Shown: positions 3,386 through 19,900, numbered from the stretch's first letter. The stretch: DNA of 26,558 bases from a virus (IMGVR_UViG_3300031857_001173:1-26558), one strand, 5' to 3'. The notes: generated by a model not told the origin, from the sequence alone. Numbers and translations: made by a program.

Positions 3386-3715
3386 ATGGCTACATCCTAT
3401 AAGGTGCTTGGGCAATCTGCTCCTAGTGCAACTTCGGCAACAACTTTGTACACTGTTCCTAGTGCTACTGAGGCAGTGATTTCTACTATTGTTGTTTGTA
3501 ATCGTGCAGCATCTGCTGCTACATATCGCATATCAGTTAGACCTGATGGTGCTTCTCAAGCAAATCAACATTATATTGCTTATGATGCTACTGTTTCGGC
3601 TAATGATTCAACAGCATTAACTCTTGGTATTACCTTGAATGCTGCTGATGTTATTACTGTTTATGCTTCAACTGCTGATTTAAGTTTCAACGCTTTCGGA
3701 AGTGAGATAGTTTAA
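3386..3715 (+). CDS. small beta-rich structural protein
   Basis: 109 residues, preceded by an AGGA ribosome site (ggataaggaaaaatATG). The sequence is an all-beta pattern: TLYTVPSATEAVISTIVVCNR, a YRISVRP strand, an HYIAYDATVSAND loop, and an ADVITVYAST strand. This arrangement (position- or polarity-independent immunoglobulin-like sandwich) recurs in short phage proteins encoded next to fibres, often called virion structural proteins. No enzymatic motif is visible. The stop codon overlaps the next start (TAATG), so expression is coupled with the large fibre gene. Confidence 0.55.
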   Translation: MATSYKVLGQSAPSATSATTLYTVPSATEAVISTIVVCNRAASAATYRISVRPDGASQANQHYIAYDATVSANDSTALTLGITLNAADVITVYASTADLSFNAFGSEIV

Positions 3716-4923
3716 TGGCTGTTAATCGTTTAAATGTTGGTGCTACAAACCAGTTGTTGGCTAAGGCTTCAACAGGTCAGTCTACTAATATTTTGGAGTT
3801 GCAGAATACTGCTGGTGTGACTGTTGCTGGTGTTGATGCTTCTGGTAATGGTGTTGGTGGTTTGGCTCATCCTCCTACTTTTAAGAATCTGATTATTAAT
3901 GGTGCTATGCAGGTTGCACAACGTGCAACTTCTGTTACTGGTATTACTGCTGATTCACTTGCAACAGCCGATAGATGGACTTCTCAAATTGGTACTATAG
4001 GCACTTGGACTAACTCTGTTGAAAATGATGCACCAACTGGTTCTGGTTTTAGAAAATCTTGGAAATGGTTATGCACAACAGCAGATGCAAGTCCTGCCGC
4101 TGGTGATTATATGGTTCCTCAAACAAGACTTGAAGGACAAAATCTTCAACAAATTGCTAAAGGTACATCATCTGCTAAAGAGTTAACTTTATCTTTTTGG
4201 GTTAAAGCAAATGTTACTGGTACATATATTGTTGGTTTATTTGATGTAGATAATACTCGTATTGTCTCTAAATCTTATACGGTTAGTGCCTCAGCAACTT
4301 GGGAAAAGAAAACAATAACTTTTCCTGCTGATACTACTGGTGTTTTTGATAACGATAATGCTCGTTCTTTAGATATTCAATTTTGGTTAGGTGCTGGAAC
4401 AAATTTTACTTCAGGTACTTTAGCAACTACTTGGCAATCTAATACTTCTGCTAATCGTGCTGTTGGTCAAGTTAACGTTGCTGCATCAACAAACAACTAC
4501 TGGCAAATAACAGGTGTACAACTTGAAGTTGGTAGTGTTGCAACAGACTACGAGTTTAAACCATTTGATGTTGACCTTCAACAATGTATGAGATATTATC
4601 AAAAATCTTACAATCAATCAGTTTTTGCTGGAGCCACAGGAACTGAAGCACAAGCAGTAATATGGTCTTCAATAACAACAGGTGGTTACGGAAGTTCAAT
4701 ACCTGTTTTCCTTAAAGTACCTATGAGAGCAGCCCCAACTGTAACTATATATAACCCATCAACAGGTAACAGTGGAAGTATTTACGGACTTAGTGCTGCA
4801 AATAGTTTTAATGGTATTGCTGATTATATTAATCAAAATAGTTTTGCAATGTATGCAACAGCAACACAATCACCTGCTGGATATTTAATTGGTGCTAACT
4901 ATGTAGCACAGATTGAGTTATAA
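3715..4923 (+). CDS. tail fibre / receptor-binding protein with carbohydrate-binding-like domain (module A)
   Basis: 402 residues. The N-terminus (residues 1-50) has short fibre-shaft repeats (VGATNQLLAKASTGQ, LELQNTAGV, VDASGNG). From about residue 57 a segment reading KNLIINGAMQVAQRAT, then TADRW, starts a jelly-roll-like domain with ELTLSFWVKANVTGTY and WQITGVQLEVGS. These are typical of phage fibre domains related to carbohydrate-binding modules; the block ends with a YEFKPFDVDLQQCMRYYQKS segment common to that family. The remaining 100 residues are a variable tip. Probably adsorbs to host surface glycan. Codon use in the first 240 bases is rich in T and G at third positions and then changes, suggesting mosaic origin. 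A small partner gene follows after two bases. Confidence 0.72.
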   Translation: MAVNRLNVGATNQLLAKASTGQSTNILELQNTAGVTVAGVDASGNGVGGLAHPPTFKNLIINGAMQVAQRATSVTGITADSLATADRWTSQIGTIGTWTNSVENDAPTGSGFRKSWKWLCTTADASPAAGDYMVPQTRLEGQNLQQIAKGTSSAKELTLSFWVKANVTGTYIVGLFDVDNTRIVSKSYTVSASATWEKKTITFPADTTGVFDNDNARSLDIQFWLGAGTNFTSGTLATTWQSNTSANRAVGQVNVAASTNNYWQITGVQLEVGSVATDYEFKPFDVDLQQCMRYYQKSYNQSVFAGATGTEAQAVIWSSITTGGYGSSIPVFLKVPMRAAPTVTIYNPSTGNSGSIYGLSAANSFNGIADYINQNSFAMYATATQSPAGYLIGANYVAQIEL

Positions 4924-4925
4924 CT

Positions 4926-5087
4926 ATGTATAAAATATTATCAATAAACAGTAGACAAATACTACAAAGAATATCAGACAGTGCTTCTATTCCTTTTGAT
5001 GAAGCAAACAATGATTATAAAGAATACCTTGAATGGGTTGCTAACGGCAACGTGGCTGAAGTAGAGGAAATAACTAATGGCAATTAA
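4926..5087 (+). CDS. small fibre-partner protein (module A), 53 aa
   Basis: ATG 4926 follows the fibre stop by two bases; TAA is at 5085-5087, and the last 11 bases overlap the next fibre gene. The 53-residue product has a DYKEYLEWVANGN segment near residues 30-42, close to the (N)DYxxYLxWxAxGN(T) motif common in small proteins encoded after phage fibres (assembly-chaperone or fibre-assembly-type). Tight placement between two fibre genes and the motif support a real gene. Function as assembly partner or chaperone is inferred from context. Confidence 0.7.
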   Translation: MYKILSINSRQILQRISDSASIPFDEANNDYKEYLEWVANGNVAEVEEITNGN

Positions 5088-5997
5088 TAATTTCAACGTT
5101 GGTGTAGGCACAACCTCACAACTAACACGCTACAGATACGTGGCAACAGGTGGAGAAACATCCATCAGTGGTGCAGACGCAGACGGAAAAACATTATCCT
5201 ACACAGTAGGTTTAGAACAAGTGTTTTTAAACGGTGTGAACCTGGTGCGTGGGCAAGACTACACAGCAACTAATGGTACTTCTATTGGTAATTTGACTGC
5301 TTTGGTGGCTTCTGATGTGGTTGAGGTGTTTGCTTATGTTCCTTTCAATATTGCTAATGCTTTGACTGTTTCTACTGTTGATGCTAAGGGTGATTTGTTG
5401 GTTGGTACTGCTGCTGATACTGTTGGCAGGTTGGCTGTTGGTACTAATAATCAGTTGTTGGCTGCTGATTCTTCTACTGCTTCTGGTTTGAAGTGGGCTA
5501 ACGGTGGGTTGACTTTACTTACAACCACAACTTTTTCTGGTGCTACAACAGTTACTGAAACATCTTTCTTATCTAGCACTTATGATACTTATAGAGTCAT
5601 AGTTAATAGTTATTGTACAACTGCTGGTGCAGAATTAAGGTTTAGGTTTAGAAATTCAAGTGGAAATATAACTACTGGTTATTATGGAGCAGGTTTTTAT
5701 ACTGCTTATCTTGGAACTTCAGGAGTTGTTTTTGCAAAAAATAATGGTGCTGAAGCAGTTCTAAAAGATGATTCAAGTGTTTCTGGACACGAATCAATTT
5801 GTGCTTTTGATTTAGGAAATTATTCTGGTGGAGTTTCTCATCAAATTTCTGGTCAATCTAATAGTACTCAAGGTGGTTGGAATAGCCATTTTGGTTACTA
5901 TGAAGTTGGTGGTGGAACTCAGTTAACTGGGTTCCAGATTTATCCAAGTGCAGGAAATATAACAGGTAGTCTAAAGATTTATGGGTATAACAAATGA
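5077..5997 (+). CDS. tail fibre protein (module B), C-terminal tip paralogous to module C
   Basis: 306 residues. The N-terminal domain (1-105) has an EQVFLNGVNLVRGQDYTA stretch typical of phage fibre/appendage domains. A fibre-linker segment follows (STVDAKGDLLVGTAADTVG, RLAVGTNNQLLAADS, KWANGG), a pattern common in actinophage fibres. The C-terminal domain begins LTLLTTTTFSG, contains FLSSTYDTYRVIV, and ends SLKIYGYNK. The fibre at 6204-6752 has the same plan and the same GYNK end. Third-position base choice switches abruptly near base 5270, from A/C-rich to T/G-rich, then again near 5510. This marks recombination joints that coincide with domain boundaries. Likely a receptor-binding fibre. 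Confidence 0.75.
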   Translation: MAINNFNVGVGTTSQLTRYRYVATGGETSISGADADGKTLSYTVGLEQVFLNGVNLVRGQDYTATNGTSIGNLTALVASDVVEVFAYVPFNIANALTVSTVDAKGDLLVGTAADTVGRLAVGTNNQLLAADSSTASGLKWANGGLTLLTTTTFSGATTVTETSFLSSTYDTYRVIVNSYCTTAGAELRFRFRNSSGNITTGYYGAGFYTAYLGTSGVVFAKNNGAEAVLKDDSSVSGHESICAFDLGNYSGGVSHQISGQSNSTQGGWNSHFGYYEVGGGTQLTGFQIYPSAGNITGSLKIYGYNK

Positions 5998-6203
5998 AAA
6001 TTTATGTAGATGGTAAAGAAATATTTTTGTCAGGTCAAGATGAAATTGATGTTTTAAATTCTATTGAGTCTGAGTTAAGTGAAGAGCAGGTTGCGTTGCA
6101 GGTTGAACTTGCTGCTAAGGCTGCTGCTAAGGAGTCTGCTTTAACAAAATTACAGGCTTTGGGTTTGACTGAGGCTGAAGCGAAACAGATTGTGGGTATA
6201 TAA
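5994..6203 (+). CDS. small fibre-partner protein (module B), 69 aa
   Basis: ATG overlaps the fibre stop as ATGA, and the stop abuts the next ATG. The 69-residue product begins with a short beta-like segment (MKIYVDGKEIFLSG). An acidic helical stretch and a C-terminal helix follow (KLQALGLTEAEAKQIVGI). The ending (K/R-x-x-LxxLGLTEEEAxxIxG) closely matches the end of the 6749-6976 product and is common in small proteins that follow phage fibre genes. Probably a fibre assembly helper or peripheral tip subunit (inference). Confidence 0.72.
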   Translation: MKIYVDGKEIFLSGQDEIDVLNSIESELSEEQVALQVELAAKAAAKESALTKLQALGLTEAEAKQIVGI

Positions 6204-6752
6204 ATGACTAGAGCAAGAGACCTAGCAGACTTAGGTGGTAATGCTGCAACACTTGAAAAACAAGGGTTAACATTAATTAACACTACAAGTTTTTCAGGAG
6301 TTACTTCTCAACCTATAAACAACGTGTTTAGTTCAACTTATGATAATTATAAAATAATGTTATGGTGGGTTGGAGCAAGTGCTTCTGGTACATTTTCTCT
6401 TCGTTACCGAGTAGATAATGCTGATAATTCAACAGCAAATTATGCAAGACAAAATTTAGGTGCAGCAAGTACTACAGTTTTTGGTTCAAGAAATGATTCT
6501 GGAACTTCTCATTCTTTTGATTCTATACAAACAAATTATAGTTATAGAGATATTGATGTTTTCAATCCATTCAATACAGAATTAACTACTTCTTTTCATA
6601 AAATGTATTATAGAGCAGACCAAAATCAAACTTCTGAAATTCTATTACAAGGTTACTGTTTTCAAGCAACTACAAGTTTTACAGGATTTAGTTTGTTAAG
6701 CAGTGGTGCAAATGTAACAGGAAAAGTTCAAGTGTTTGGATATAATAAATGA
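6204..6752 (+). CDS. short tail fibre protein (module C)
   Basis: 182 residues. The N-terminus MTRARDLADLGGNAATL is a short fibre-attachment peptide seen in many marine and freshwater phage fibre genes. The rest is one tip domain: LTLINTTSFSG, VFSSTYDNYKIML, a variable middle, and FTGFSLLSSGANVTGKVQVFGYNK in spaced segments. The C-terminal region aligns by eye with residues about 145-306 of the module B fibre (TTxFSG...FxSTYDxY...GYNK). A tandem duplication with divergence is the simplest explanation. Translation is coupled to the partner gene downstream by an ATGATGA overlap. Confidence 0.75.
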   Translation: MTRARDLADLGGNAATLEKQGLTLINTTSFSGVTSQPINNVFSSTYDNYKIMLWWVGASASGTFSLRYRVDNADNSTANYARQNLGAASTTVFGSRNDSGTSHSFDSIQTNYSYRDIDVFNPFNTELTTSFHKMYYRADQNQTSEILLQGYCFQATTSFTGFSLLSSGANVTGKVQVFGYNK

Positions 6753-6976
6753 TGACTAATATAAATGAAGAACAAATATTTATTGGTGACGAAAATGGAA
6801 ACCCAATAGAGTTAACTGGCAAAGATAAAGAAGCATTTCTTGAGCAACGTGCTAAAGACCGAGCAGAACAAGAATTATTTGAAGCCAAATATGAAGAAAG
6901 AAAACAACAAAAAGCAGCAATACTTGAACGTATCGGATTAACCGAAGAAGAGTTACAAATAGTTCTAGGAGCATAA
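6749..6976 (+). CDS. small fibre-partner protein (module C), 75 aa
   Basis: ATG at 6749 overlaps the fibre stop (a second in-frame ATG at 6752 is equally possible). The product is helical and highly charged, with EQRAKDRAEQELFEAKYEE across the middle. It ends AAILERIGLTEEELQIVLGA, which parallels the end of the 5994-6203 product (LGLTEAEAKQIVGI). The stop overlaps the next start as TAATG. Conserved ending and repeated position after a fibre suggest a dedicated chaperone or coiled-coil partner. No enzyme motif is present. Confidence 0.72.
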   Translation: MMTNINEEQIFIGDENGNPIELTGKDKEAFLEQRAKDRAEQELFEAKYEERKQQKAAILERIGLTEEELQIVLGA

Positions 6977-9138
6977 TGGCAATAAATGATATTACCGAAG
7001 CATTAGCCATTGACCTATCCGTCTCAACAGACACACAACTCTATGGTTTAGACTCAGTATCATACGACATAGCAGTAAACGACAAACCATTCTTTATCGC
7101 TGCCACAGATGAGCAACCATACCGTAGAGAATCAGCCCCATCCAAGCGTGAACAGATAGACCAAACCACTGAACCAGGTGAACAATCATTCACAGGCTGG
7201 TGGTTTAGAAGTCAATCATCTTTTCATCTTGGTGCAGGGGCAAAGTATTTTGAACCAAGCCAGGATGAGACTTTGCGTTTCAGGTTTCAGGATTCTGAGG
7301 GTGTGGATGTTTGGACTAAGGGTCAAATCAGTTTACTGAAAGATGTTGATACTAGCCATATAACTACCACAGGTAATCTTAAACTTCGTTCCATTCGTGA
7401 ATCAAGCAGAGACGAAGCACTGCTTCTTGATGGTCACGATGTTGACAAAGTATTTCCAAGAATAACTTTCTCAATCAACAACAAAGCACTAACATCTAAT
7501 GTTGCTACTTTGACTACTACTGCAGCACACGGTTTGGCTGTTGGTATGCAAGTTGATATTAGTGGTGTTGATGCCACATTCAATGGTGAATACCGTGTTA
7601 CTGGTGTTCCAACAACCACAACTTTTACTTACGCAAAAACAGCATCTAATGTTACTTCAACTGCTGTATCACCTGTTGGTACTGGTATAACAGACCTTAT
7701 TCATTTCATTGATTACAACAGTTTAACTGATGACCCTGTTTATGCAATATGCGATGATGGAACAACAGCCTATTGGGCAACTAATGCTTTGGATACCACA
7801 AAGAAAGCACATCTTTACAAGAAGGTTTTAACTGGGGATTCCACAACTGCTAACACATTAATGTTCAACGTTAACTCATACCAATTTACTGACGGTAAAG
7901 TTGTAATGGACTGGGTTAAAGGTCGTATTATTCTTGCAGCAGATAACAAAGTTTATGAATTAACCCCATCAACATCTTCTTTACCTACACCAATATTTAC
8001 TCACCCTAACACTTCATATACTTTCACAAGTATTGCAGAATCTGGTGCAGCAATCTATGTGGCAGGTTACGCTGGCACACAATCATCAATCTACAAATTT
8101 ACTTTATCTGATGCTGGTGCTATCACTTCGCTAACATCTGCTGTTGTGTCAGCACAGATGCCTGATGGTGAACTGGTTTATGCCATCAAACAATACTTGG
8201 GCTATATGCTTATCGGTACTTCTAAAGGTATCCGTGTTGCAACAGTTTCACCTGATGATGGGTCAATTGCTTATGGTCCACTAATTGCAGAAACAGAACA
8301 ACCAGTCTATGACTTTGCTTTCAGAGATAGATTCTGTTGGGCTACTGCCGAGGTTAACGGCAAAGGTGGTCTGATTCGTATTGATTTATCCGAACAGATT
8401 AGTCCTCTCAGGTTTGCTTACGCTCACGACATCTTTAAGAATGTTGCTAAGAACTGTAAGGCTGTGGCTTTCTTGGGTACATCTGACCGTAAAATCTTTG
8501 CCCTTGACACAGACTATAGTTACATTGAAGCAGCAACCAGACTTGCTGCAACAGGATACTTACGCACAGGTTTCATTCGTTACGCCACATTAGAAAACAA
8601 ATACTTTAAGTTCCTGAAAGTTCGTGGAACTTTGAACACCACAACAACTATTGATGTTAATAGTATTACTGGTGCAGAAGTTGACACACTTTTGTACAAC
8701 GTTACCGATGAGAACTTGAACGAAGATTTGGGTGTGGCTAGACCTACTGGTGGTCAAGAGTTCTTGGCTTTTAAGTTCACATTAAAACGAGACACAGCCA
8801 ACACTGCTAACGGTGCGATTATGACTGGCTACCAAATCAAGGCTTTACCTGCAATATTTAAACAAAGACTTATCCAATACCCATTGTACTGTTATGACGT
8901 GGAGATGGATAAATATAACAACCTAGTTGGTTCTGAGGATGATAGGGCTTTTGACCGTATCACTGCCTTAGAAGAACTAGAAAGAAATGGCAACATTGTT
9001 GTTGTACAAGATTTTAGAACAGATGAAACTTTCTCTGCTCTAATAGAAGAGATTAGATTCTTTTCTGCTACACCACCAAGTGAAAGATTTAATGGCTTTG
9101 GTGGCAAACTTCTACTAACTGTTAGGAAACTATCTTAA
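6976..9138 (+). CDS. large tail protein (beta-propeller-like, baseplate/tail tip candidate)
   Basis: 720 residues, TAATG-coupled on both sides. The N-terminal 110 residues contain a domain with FTGWWFRSQSSFHLGAGAK and then ETLRFRFQDSEGVDVWTKG. Residues about 155-235 include a bacterial-Ig-like beta segment (AAHGLAVGMQVDISGVDATF). From about 245 there are repeated four-strand blades (DPVYAICDDGTTAYWAT, YVAGYAGTQSSIYKF, GYMLIGTSKGIRVA, FLGTSDRKIFALDTD), suggesting a beta-propeller. The end is a mixed domain of the type found in tail-tip proteins. Its position after the fibre set and before the lysis genes supports a minor tail or baseplate protein. The early part (7000-7200) uses A/C-ending codons while the rest does not, so the N-terminal domain may be recombined. 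Confidence 0.65.
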   Translation: MAINDITEALAIDLSVSTDTQLYGLDSVSYDIAVNDKPFFIAATDEQPYRRESAPSKREQIDQTTEPGEQSFTGWWFRSQSSFHLGAGAKYFEPSQDETLRFRFQDSEGVDVWTKGQISLLKDVDTSHITTTGNLKLRSIRESSRDEALLLDGHDVDKVFPRITFSINNKALTSNVATLTTTAAHGLAVGMQVDISGVDATFNGEYRVTGVPTTTTFTYAKTASNVTSTAVSPVGTGITDLIHFIDYNSLTDDPVYAICDDGTTAYWATNALDTTKKAHLYKKVLTGDSTTANTLMFNVNSYQFTDGKVVMDWVKGRIILAADNKVYELTPSTSSLPTPIFTHPNTSYTFTSIAESGAAIYVAGYAGTQSSIYKFTLSDAGAITSLTSAVVSAQMPDGELVYAIKQYLGYMLIGTSKGIRVATVSPDDGSIAYGPLIAETEQPVYDFAFRDRFCWATAEVNGKGGLIRIDLSEQISPLRFAYAHDIFKNVAKNCKAVAFLGTSDRKIFALDTDYSYIEAATRLAATGYLRTGFIRYATLENKYFKFLKVRGTLNTTTTIDVNSITGAEVDTLLYNVTDENLNEDLGVARPTGGQEFLAFKFTLKRDTANTANGAIMTGYQIKALPAIFKQRLIQYPLYCYDVEMDKYNNLVGSEDDRAFDRITALEELERNGNIVVVQDFRTDETFSALIEEIRFFSATPPSERFNGFGGKLLLTVRKLS

Positions 9139-9790: not shown

Positions 9791-10483
9791 ATGGGTTTAA
9801 AACCTGTATCTGAATTAAAAAACAAACATAAAGATAAAGACATTTATGTGCTTGGTTCAGGTGCAACATTAAACTTTATAGATAAAGAGTTCTTTAAAGA
9901 TAAGATAACAGTATCTGTTAATGAAGTAGGTTCAGTATATTTACCTACCACTAATTACATTGTTACTAAGTATCATAGTGATGCACAGCATTGGGCTAGA
10001 CATATACCTGATGTTAAGATTGTTTGTTCTTACGGTAACACTGGTGCTAATGGTGCTGGTAAATTATCTAATGAGTTTGATAACTTGTATGAGTTTGAGC
10101 ATAATGAAAACTATGATAAGCAAACTAATATATTAAATGAGTTCCCTACTGGGGACAATCATCTGGTTGTTTCTTGGTCTAGTATAACCTCTGCTATTCA
10201 TCTGGCTGCACATCTTGGTGCTAAGAATATTATTCTTGTAGCACACGATTGTGGTGAACTTGATGATAAGGCTTGGGTTAATGGTTATGTTTATGACACT
10301 ATGCTTGATGATGAAGAATATATTAACAATGTTAAAAGTCGTGCCGTGCAATTTGAGGCTCAGACTATTCAGTTAAAACAAAAACTTCAAGAAGTATATG
10401 GATGCAATATCTATAGTCTTAATCCTTTTATTAACTATAGTCTTGAGGGTCACAAGTATCGTGGCACTTCAGTAATCAATTAA
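9791..10483 (+). CDS. Rossmann-type protein resembling Maf/MptE-like (DUF115) glycan enzymes
   Basis: 230 residues. The N-terminus reads KDIYVLGSGATLNFID then KITVSVNEVG (residues 16-46). This matches the 'GxGPSL...D......VIGVN' type nucleotide-binding opening of the Maf/MptE/DUF115 and sialyltransferase-like families. A second strand-loop, KNIILVAHDCGELDDKAW (about 154-170), carries an Asp-Cys-Gly element. Several such enzymes transfer nonulosonic acids or phosphorylated groups. A role in modifying virion or cell-surface glycan is plausible because two glycosyltransferase-like genes lie nearby, but no substrate can be named. It ends one base before the convergent leftward gene. Confidence 0.5.
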   Translation: MGLKPVSELKNKHKDKDIYVLGSGATLNFIDKEFFKDKITVSVNEVGSVYLPTTNYIVTKYHSDAQHWARHIPDVKIVCSYGNTGANGAGKLSNEFDNLYEFEHNENYDKQTNILNEFPTGDNHLVVSWSSITSAIHLAAHLGAKNIILVAHDCGELDDKAWVNGYVYDTMLDDEEYINNVKSRAVQFEAQTIQLKQKLQEVYGCNIYSLNPFINYSLEGHKYRGTSVIN

Positions 10484-19319: not shown

Positions 19320-19572
19320 CAAGATTTAGCATATCCTCGTCTATTAAAATTGTTGTGGCATCAGCAAATTTCATAGCCAATGCACCAATAGTACCTATAA
19401 TTAAAAGTCTAGTGTTATGACTGGTACTAGCATCTTGCCAAGTATCGTCATCTCTCACAAGTCCGTTAATTATATCTACAACATTTTCACTTTCTTCAAC
19501 TGCTTCAACTACTTCTTTTTTAAATGCGCTGTTGATGAGTTCTTCAATACGATACTCGTTATTATCAGGCAA
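19288..19572 (-). CDS. unknown protein, TTG start, acidic tail
   Basis: The frame is open further upstream, but only TTG 19572 follows the recurrent GGAGACGAGG ribosome site of this region. The 94-residue product is helical and acidic (VVEAVEESENVVDIINGLV), followed by a hydrophobic segment (RLLIIGTIGALAMKFADATT), and ends EVEEEEGKE. The start overlaps the WhiB stop by eight bases. No family is recognised. Possible membrane association of the hydrophobic part. Confidence 0.5.
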   Translation of the reverse strand: MPDNNEYRIEELINSAFKKEVVEAVEESENVVDIINGLVRDDDTWQDASTSHNTRLLIIGTIGALAMKFADATTILIDEDMLNLDEVEEEEGKE

Positions 19573-19900
19573 CCTCGTCTCCTCTCTTATCCCAAGAACC
19601 AAACGCATCTCGTTGCGCTGTATCAAATATCTCTGCAACAATACCTAATTCTTTGCGTGCTCGTCTTCTCTCTGTATAGGTAGTTCCTCCCCATACTCCA
19701 CGAACATCAACGTGTAAAGCGTATTCATAACATTGTCTTAAGACAGGACAATCTTGACAGTACGCCTTTTGCTCTGGCGCTATCTCTTCTCTTCTCCTAT
19801 TTGAACCATAATTAAAGAACCAATCAGGGTCAGGGTGAGATAAGCACTTCGCTGTTTCAAAGTATGGTGTTATATAGCGAGTACTGATTGGCTTTGCCAC
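19565..19900 (-). CDS. whiB: WhiB-family iron-sulfur transcription regulator
   Basis: 111 residues with GTG start after GAGGAG. It has the four WhiB cysteines C19, C48, C51 and C57 (AKCLSHPDPDWFF ... AYCQDCPVLRQC) and the G-(V/I)-W-G-G turn at 68-72, followed by a basic segment (TERRRARKE). Family knowledge: WhiB proteins bind a 4Fe-4S cluster and the sigma factor region 4 and act in Actinobacteria; phages such as TM4 carry homologues that interfere with host division or superinfection. This is the strongest marker for an actinobacterial host. One perfect TGTCTTAAGACA palindrome lies within this gene. Confidence 0.95.
   Translation of the reverse strand: MAKPISTRYITPYFETAKCLSHPDPDWFFNYGSNRRREEIAPEQKAYCQDCPVLRQCYEYALHVDVRGVWGGTTYTERRRARKELGIVAEIFDTAQRDAFGSWDKRGDEVA
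19734..19745. promoter_or_regulatory. CTTAAG palindrome site, perfect consensus
   Basis: TGTCTTAAGACA inside the WhiB coding sequence. One of three perfect copies in the window. Confidence 0.6.

Follow-up and report, generated by a model that had tools for sequence, protein, structure and literature searches.

Gene order and fibres of the cassette

The window analysed here, a stretch of 26,558 bases, is a whole IMG/VR virus record in which three modules, each composed of a fibre gene and a small partner gene, follow one another on the + strand from 3715 to 6976. An earlier note had described three such modules joined by ATGA overlaps or a two-base gap, and all six ORFs were confirmed at their positions. 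Fibre 1 (3715-4923, 402 aa) is separated by two bases from partner 1 (4926-5087, 53 aa), which overlaps by 11 bases with fibre 2 (5077-5997, 306 aa). ATGA overlaps link fibre 2 to partner 2 (5994-6203, 69 aa) and fibre 3 (6204-6752, 182 aa) to partner 3 (6749-6976, 75 aa), with a gap of zero between partner 2 and fibre 3. Partner 3 shares a single base with the next gene, giving spacings of +2, -11, -4, 0, -4 and -1 bases along the cassette. This downstream structural gene (6976-9138, + strand; phrog_11667) is conserved, has homologues in Streptomyces phages and bounds the cassette. A megablast search of the window against isolate phages returned no match.

Two of the fibres are recognized by tail-fibre PHROGs. 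Fibre 1 matches phrog_4492 (E 4.9e-71) and has homologues in Pelagibacter, Puniceispirillum, cyanobacterial and Pseudomonas phages; its core of carbohydrate-binding type is conserved and its variable C-terminus ends in AQIEL, while a sequence search of this fibre against solved structures found none. Fibre 2 matches phrog_38058 (E 2e-22) and combines a conserved N-terminal part with a C-terminal tip of ~156 aa that ends in KIYGYNK. Fibre 3, a short N-terminus followed by a tip domain, has no match among the PHROGs. We count it as a fibre because its whole domain is homologous to the tip of fibre 2: an iterated profile built from fibre 3 recovers the last ~156 residues of fibre 2, together with dozens of fibre C-termini on other contigs. 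Tip types are named here from their last residues, 'EL' for fibre 1 and 'YG' for fibres 2 and 3. The AlphaFold2 model of fibre 3 is an all-beta domain (pLDDT 89). Its resemblances in the PDB, to lectin-like and GH32 beta-sandwiches (Z up to 8.0) and to an archaeal virus tail fibre (7.1), are middling, so that we claim no receptor class for this fibre; in a viral library the fold search retrieved many proteins of uncultured phages, some of them named tail fibre.

Two families of small partners

Partner 1 belongs to a family that we call class B. It carries the motif DYKEYLEWVANGN and, as announced in the earlier note, the YKEYLEWVANGN motif, and it corresponds to phrog_20370/34019; the family pattern reads MYKL...SDNAxIPFDxANTDYQEYLEWLAEGNTPEPAD. 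At least 559 confirmed relatives occur in viral contigs, and the family extends to isolate phages of Pseudomonas putida, Acidovorax, Xanthomonas, Synechococcus, Prochlorococcus and Methylophilales. Its members there are annotated as 'hypothetical protein' in nearly every case and once as 'tail fiber assembly-like'. Since the class B loci were picked by the partner, the partner-to-fibre direction is unbiased: a gene of the fibre 1 family lies directly upstream in 81 of the 87 distinct class B genes that have an upstream neighbour. Two of the remaining six are chance motif matches from another gene family and most of the others adjoin truncated fibres. The ending E[LI] is found in 77/80 genes directly upstream of class B, against 8/374 other genes of the same loci. 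In the opposite direction, which is partly selected, almost every EL fibre precedes a class B gene or a less strict form of one (79 strict cases and most of 12 others).

In three relatives (L119, L130, L146) the class B head runs on into the Phage_tail_APC domain PF16778 (49-52 bits, cut-off 26.6), and in Pseudomonas phage Luutsna-3 into sequence with matches to tail-fiber-assembly PHROGs. The window's partner 1 retains the head alone. With the tail absent it shows no obvious trimerisation element, which counts against a scheme of trimerising helpers, and its sequence search against solved structures gave chance-level matches only.

Partners 2 and 3 form a second family, class A, which is undescribed in Pfam, PHROGs and NCBIfam. 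Its alignment shows a variable head followed by a conserved helical tail, KESALxKLxALGLTEEEhKxhhG, with the closing motif GLTExE. For partner 2 the head spans 5994-6114 and the tail, a GLTEAE module, 6115-6203. Partner 2 is predicted to fold into a beta-hairpin (residues 2-11) and two helices, a long one (14-55) and a short one (60-67), at a middling confidence (pLDDT 79.5, pTM 0.39). The ends of both partners had been called near-identical LGLTEEE motifs. What they share is GLTExE; the ends themselves read LGLTEAEAKQIVGI and IGLTEEELQIVLGA, with 32% identity over the last 36 residues. This common ending is not a matter of chance, since none of the other small ORFs of the window (132 in total) ends in GLT[ED][AED]E.

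The C-terminal module of class A was found behind fibres in ~60 other viral contigs. By tblastn against isolate phages neither partner 2 nor the partner of locus L058 gave a match, but a more distant member, from L093, finds HTVC034P and HTVC025P. In HTVC034P and other pelagiphage-type loci, heads of class A type are joined to PF16778 (48-52 bits) and not to the GLTExE tail. Two of these PF16778-joined heads beat 1000/1000 shuffles when compared with class A heads, while against class B heads they stay within the range of shuffled scores; profile comparison alone of PF16778-joined with class A heads is weak (P 0.0012, probability 19%). Judged from these fusions, the GLTExE tail takes the place of the C-terminal domain in known tail-assembly chaperones. 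A shared ancestry of the class A heads with those of class B was considered as well and is unsupported (hhalign P 0.42).

Heads are joined to tails in further ways. A class A partner at L063, which accompanies a different tip type, has an XkdW head (PF09636, 54 bits) and a GLTEAE tail. Glycine-rich tips (..IVIVRYAK) at L011 (3178-3522), L013 (9429-9773) and L043 are followed by a partner of the type phrog_7759, MAHFAQIENNIVTQV.., and at L043 a head of this type is fused to a GLTEEE tail.

The window partners themselves are not recognized by such models. Searches of partners 1-3 against the chaperone models in Pfam and NCBIfam gave no match, which counts against a chaperone function. The same holds for the Pfam tail-fibre-assembly models of T4 gp38 / Mu Tfa type, for XkdW (PF09636) and for PF16778, which relatives with the same heads do match.

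Exchange and pairing of tips and heads

The earlier note had suggested that the modules are exchangeable, and alignment of the window to two close relatives, L004 and L005, shows such exchange directly as a mosaic of three blocks. Identity amounts to 82-100% up to ~3820 and drops to 22-60% over ~4525-5040, in a block (4525-5073) covering the C-terminus of fibre 1 and partner 1. It is back at 72-99% in the N-terminus of fibre 2, falls to 17-58% over ~5530-6115, in a second block (5511-6114) made up of the fibre 2 tip and the partner 2 head, and returns to 94-96% at 6121-6220, covering the tail of partner 2 and the first bases of fibre 3. It falls again over 6220-6956; in this third block (6223-6973) fibre 3 and partner 3 are replaced as a whole, and identity recovers at the downstream gene. 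As each of the three drops extends over a fibre C-terminus and a partner N-terminus, the exchanged unit is 'tip + head', across the gene boundary.

The class A partners of these phages are re-assorted in addition. In its head, partner 3 shares 52-57% identity with the partner 2 heads of L004 and L005, whereas their partner 2 tails are 86-89% identical to that of the window partner 2 and just 27-30% to that of partner 3, and thus heads and tails recombine. In place of module 3, L004 (5374-5990) and L005 (4202-4827) encode a fibre of ~145 aa and a cysteine-containing partner of 61 aa, MFKLICDKNECANKDV..., without a match among the PHROGs; we class this replacement as a fourth module type with a third partner type. 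Just upstream of the cassette the window encodes an Endonuclease VII-type gene (2508-2921, + strand; PF02945, 61.9 bits) that is absent from L004 and L005, where the neighbouring genes overlap. It is possible that this gene promotes local exchange of the cassette.

Across the class A loci, given tips recur with given heads. Tips ending in KLYGIK or VYGYNK are paired with heads of the type KLIITPEG...LTAEEIAQRE, ITLMEIAA tips with XkdW-like or DGDNYxGLxW heads, and FIRLGD tips with LHxGQWFGW heads; the isolates HTVC034P and HTVC025P obey the same pairing. Adjacency of fibre and partner, whose lack of conservation had been named as an argument against the modules, is conserved in phages of Pseudomonas, Acidovorax, Xanthomonas, cyanobacteria, SAR11, Methylophilales and uncultured hosts. 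No natural fusion of a fibre with its partner was present among the loci examined.

Such co-variation with the tips would also be expected if the partners were permanent tip adhesins similar to gp38 of phages S16 and T2, which stay at the fibre end and bind the receptor; adhesins of the gp38 type join the distal fibre tip after production (PMC7289586). We regard this as improbable. Proteins of 53-75 aa, in the case of partner 2 with a predicted hairpin and helix, would offer little receptor-binding surface, and the variable, adhesin-like part is the all-beta tip domain of the fibre itself. Moreover, relatives carry these heads joined to an assembly-chaperone domain.

The pairing was quantified by Mantel tests on 56 non-redundant pairs of class A. 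Tip similarity among the fibres correlates with head similarity among the partners at r=0.567, a value reached by 0/2000 permutations (maximum 0.13), while the values are 0.18 for tip versus partner tail and 0.29 for fibre N-terminus versus head. An equal-linkage control, in which the partner tail is set against the start of the next gene, gives 0.21. The excess over this control argues for tip-head matching beyond adjacency, though not as proof, since part of the tip-head association could be plain linkage or shared descent. Both the Mantel tests and the mosaic blocks show that variation in the partner follows the fibre tip more closely than it follows the N-terminus of the fibre.

These values also bear on the view that the partners are passive passengers, i.e., unrelated small ORFs caught in exchange blocks and held there by linkage without any function. 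Blocks do move as DNA segments, and linkage alone creates some association, as the control illustrates (0.21). The tip-head pairing (0.57) is nevertheless far above that level, class B is tied to one fibre family over several host phyla, and heads occur in combination with different tails and with known chaperone domains, which makes mere hitchhiking very unlikely. Equally unlikely is a purely structural role, in which the partners would be small linkers or trimerisation caps that remain part of the virion and connect the fibre with its neighbours but do not help it fold. Small helical products of genes coupled to a fibre gene could be stoichiometric components of the structure, and the conserved tail could serve as docking element, but this tail is the sole conserved part and the head tracks the distal tip over the virion-proximal fibre N-terminus (r 0.57 versus 0.29).

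Proposed tip-specific assembly helpers and their wider occurrence

We propose that 3715-6976 comprises three tail-fibre modules, each consisting of a fibre and a very small assembly chaperone, or transient cap, that is specific for the tip and translationally coupled to the fibre, and assign to this reading a probability of roughly 0.78. The fibre-chaperone pairing suggested in the earlier note is supported here by the fusion of partner heads to a Pfam tail-assembly-chaperone domain in relatives. The conserved N-terminus of the fibre would attach to the virion, and the variable C-terminal tip would recognize the host by receptor binding. The N-terminal head of the partner, a predicted beta-hairpin in partner 2, may bind the nascent tip physically. 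In partners 2 and 3 the helical GLTExE tail would trimerise and so gather three helper copies, in a putative 3:3 complex in which the three tips fold in register; the helper would afterwards depart or remain as a cap. Because the head must fit the tip in such a mechanism, viable recombinants would be those in which 'tip + head' moved jointly, as a single cassette flanked by conserved sequence.

Mu Tfa and T4 gp38 are cognate tail-fibre helpers encoded beside their fibre. Helpers of this type measure ~20-22 kDa (PMC7289586), whereas the window partners are smaller and lack a Pfam tail-assembly match; the PF16778 domain, absent from all three, is carried by the same heads in relatives. A close parallel is found in the fibre and phage-encoded chaperone pair gp24/gp25 of myocyanophage Pam3. 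In Pam3, a non-conserved N-terminal beta domain of gp25 binds the gp24 fibre tip and the C-terminal helical domain trimerises, and the authors compared gp25 with Mu Tfa and intramolecular chaperones (PMC9608196). A head/tail layout is also seen in the class A sequences and in the partner 2 model (pTM 0.39), where a trimerising role of the tail would be putative, while partner 1 has a head only. Pam3 gp25, with 162 aa and a beta-sandwich head, is larger than the window partners (53-75 aa), of which partner 2 has a head predicted as a hairpin, and the window holds three tandem modules with two partner families. In Alteromonas phages A5 and V22, the host-recognition module of a fibre and its cognate chaperone is common to distant phages, and the chaperones have a helical body with hairpin tentacles (PMC10579305). 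Their helper is larger (V22 gp27, 21.8 kDa) and the likeness is drawn from the layout: as modelled, the hairpin and long helix of partner 2 resemble the head/tail layout of both Pam3 gp25 and the Alteromonas chaperones. XkdW, which provides the head of the L063 partner and has no counterpart among the window partners, is listed as a protein of unknown function (PMC3909814). The kind of system is therefore known already (T4 gp37/gp38, Mu Tfa, Pam3 gp24/gp25); new are the tiny size, the interchangeable heads and tails, and the undescribed family.

The earlier note had assigned each fibre a dedicated helper. This holds in the window, but in some relatives several fibre paralogues share one partner, and some YG fibres have none of their own (L102, L103 and the triplet loci described below). 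A dedicated helper is thus not always needed, and one helper per fibre is ruled out as a general rule. The array of L102 comprises six fibre genes (four YG and two EL); each EL fibre has its own partner there, and there is one class A partner for all four YG fibres.

Among loci collected specifically to look at YG runs, 34 of the 47 complete runs consist of exactly three genes, usually followed by one partner or one further fibre. Examples are L183 (2691-4828), which is Pelagibacter phage HTVC034P gp37-gp34, and L188, L193, L196, L216, L238, L008, L057, L074 and L088. In a quick tree with many related loci the triplets fall into two well separated clades, marine and actinophage-type. Positions 1, 2 and 3 of the actinophage-type triplets form separate clades in this quick tree (support 88, 94 and 99), and over all triplets, many from related loci, the closest relative is a sibling in just 3 of the 147 genes. 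As a lead from outside the window, this suggests that triplets encode three non-redundant subunits, possibly of a heterotrimeric fibre, for which our literature search found no described case. More tentatively, and as a possible rather than a probable extension of the chaperone reading, aquatic phages may use a combinatorial code of tiny chaperones with tip-fold-specific heads and swappable tails (GLTExE helix, PF16778 or none), whose 'tip + head' cassettes cross lineages; in some lineages one chaperone would assemble three paralogous subunits into a heterotrimer. The triplets make the question of heterotrimeric fibres directly testable in the isolate HTVC034P.

Most partner genes are annotated as 'hypothetical protein'. 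Their recognition supplies fibre biochemists with the missing co-expression partner and gives annotators a rule for pairing a fibre with its helper. Host-range studies gain the correct unit of exchange, which spans a gene boundary.

With regard to the host, the window encodes a WhiB-type transcription factor (19565-19900, - strand; PF02467) that, together with the Streptomyces phage homologues of the downstream structural gene, suggests an actinobacterial host. Ahead of the fibre cluster lies a collagen-like protein with GPTGATG repeats (3-542, + strand), cut by the window start. A glycosyltransferase-like gene with a TPR match (565-1626, + strand) and an MptE-like gene (9791-10483, + strand) are both located within the structural gene cluster.
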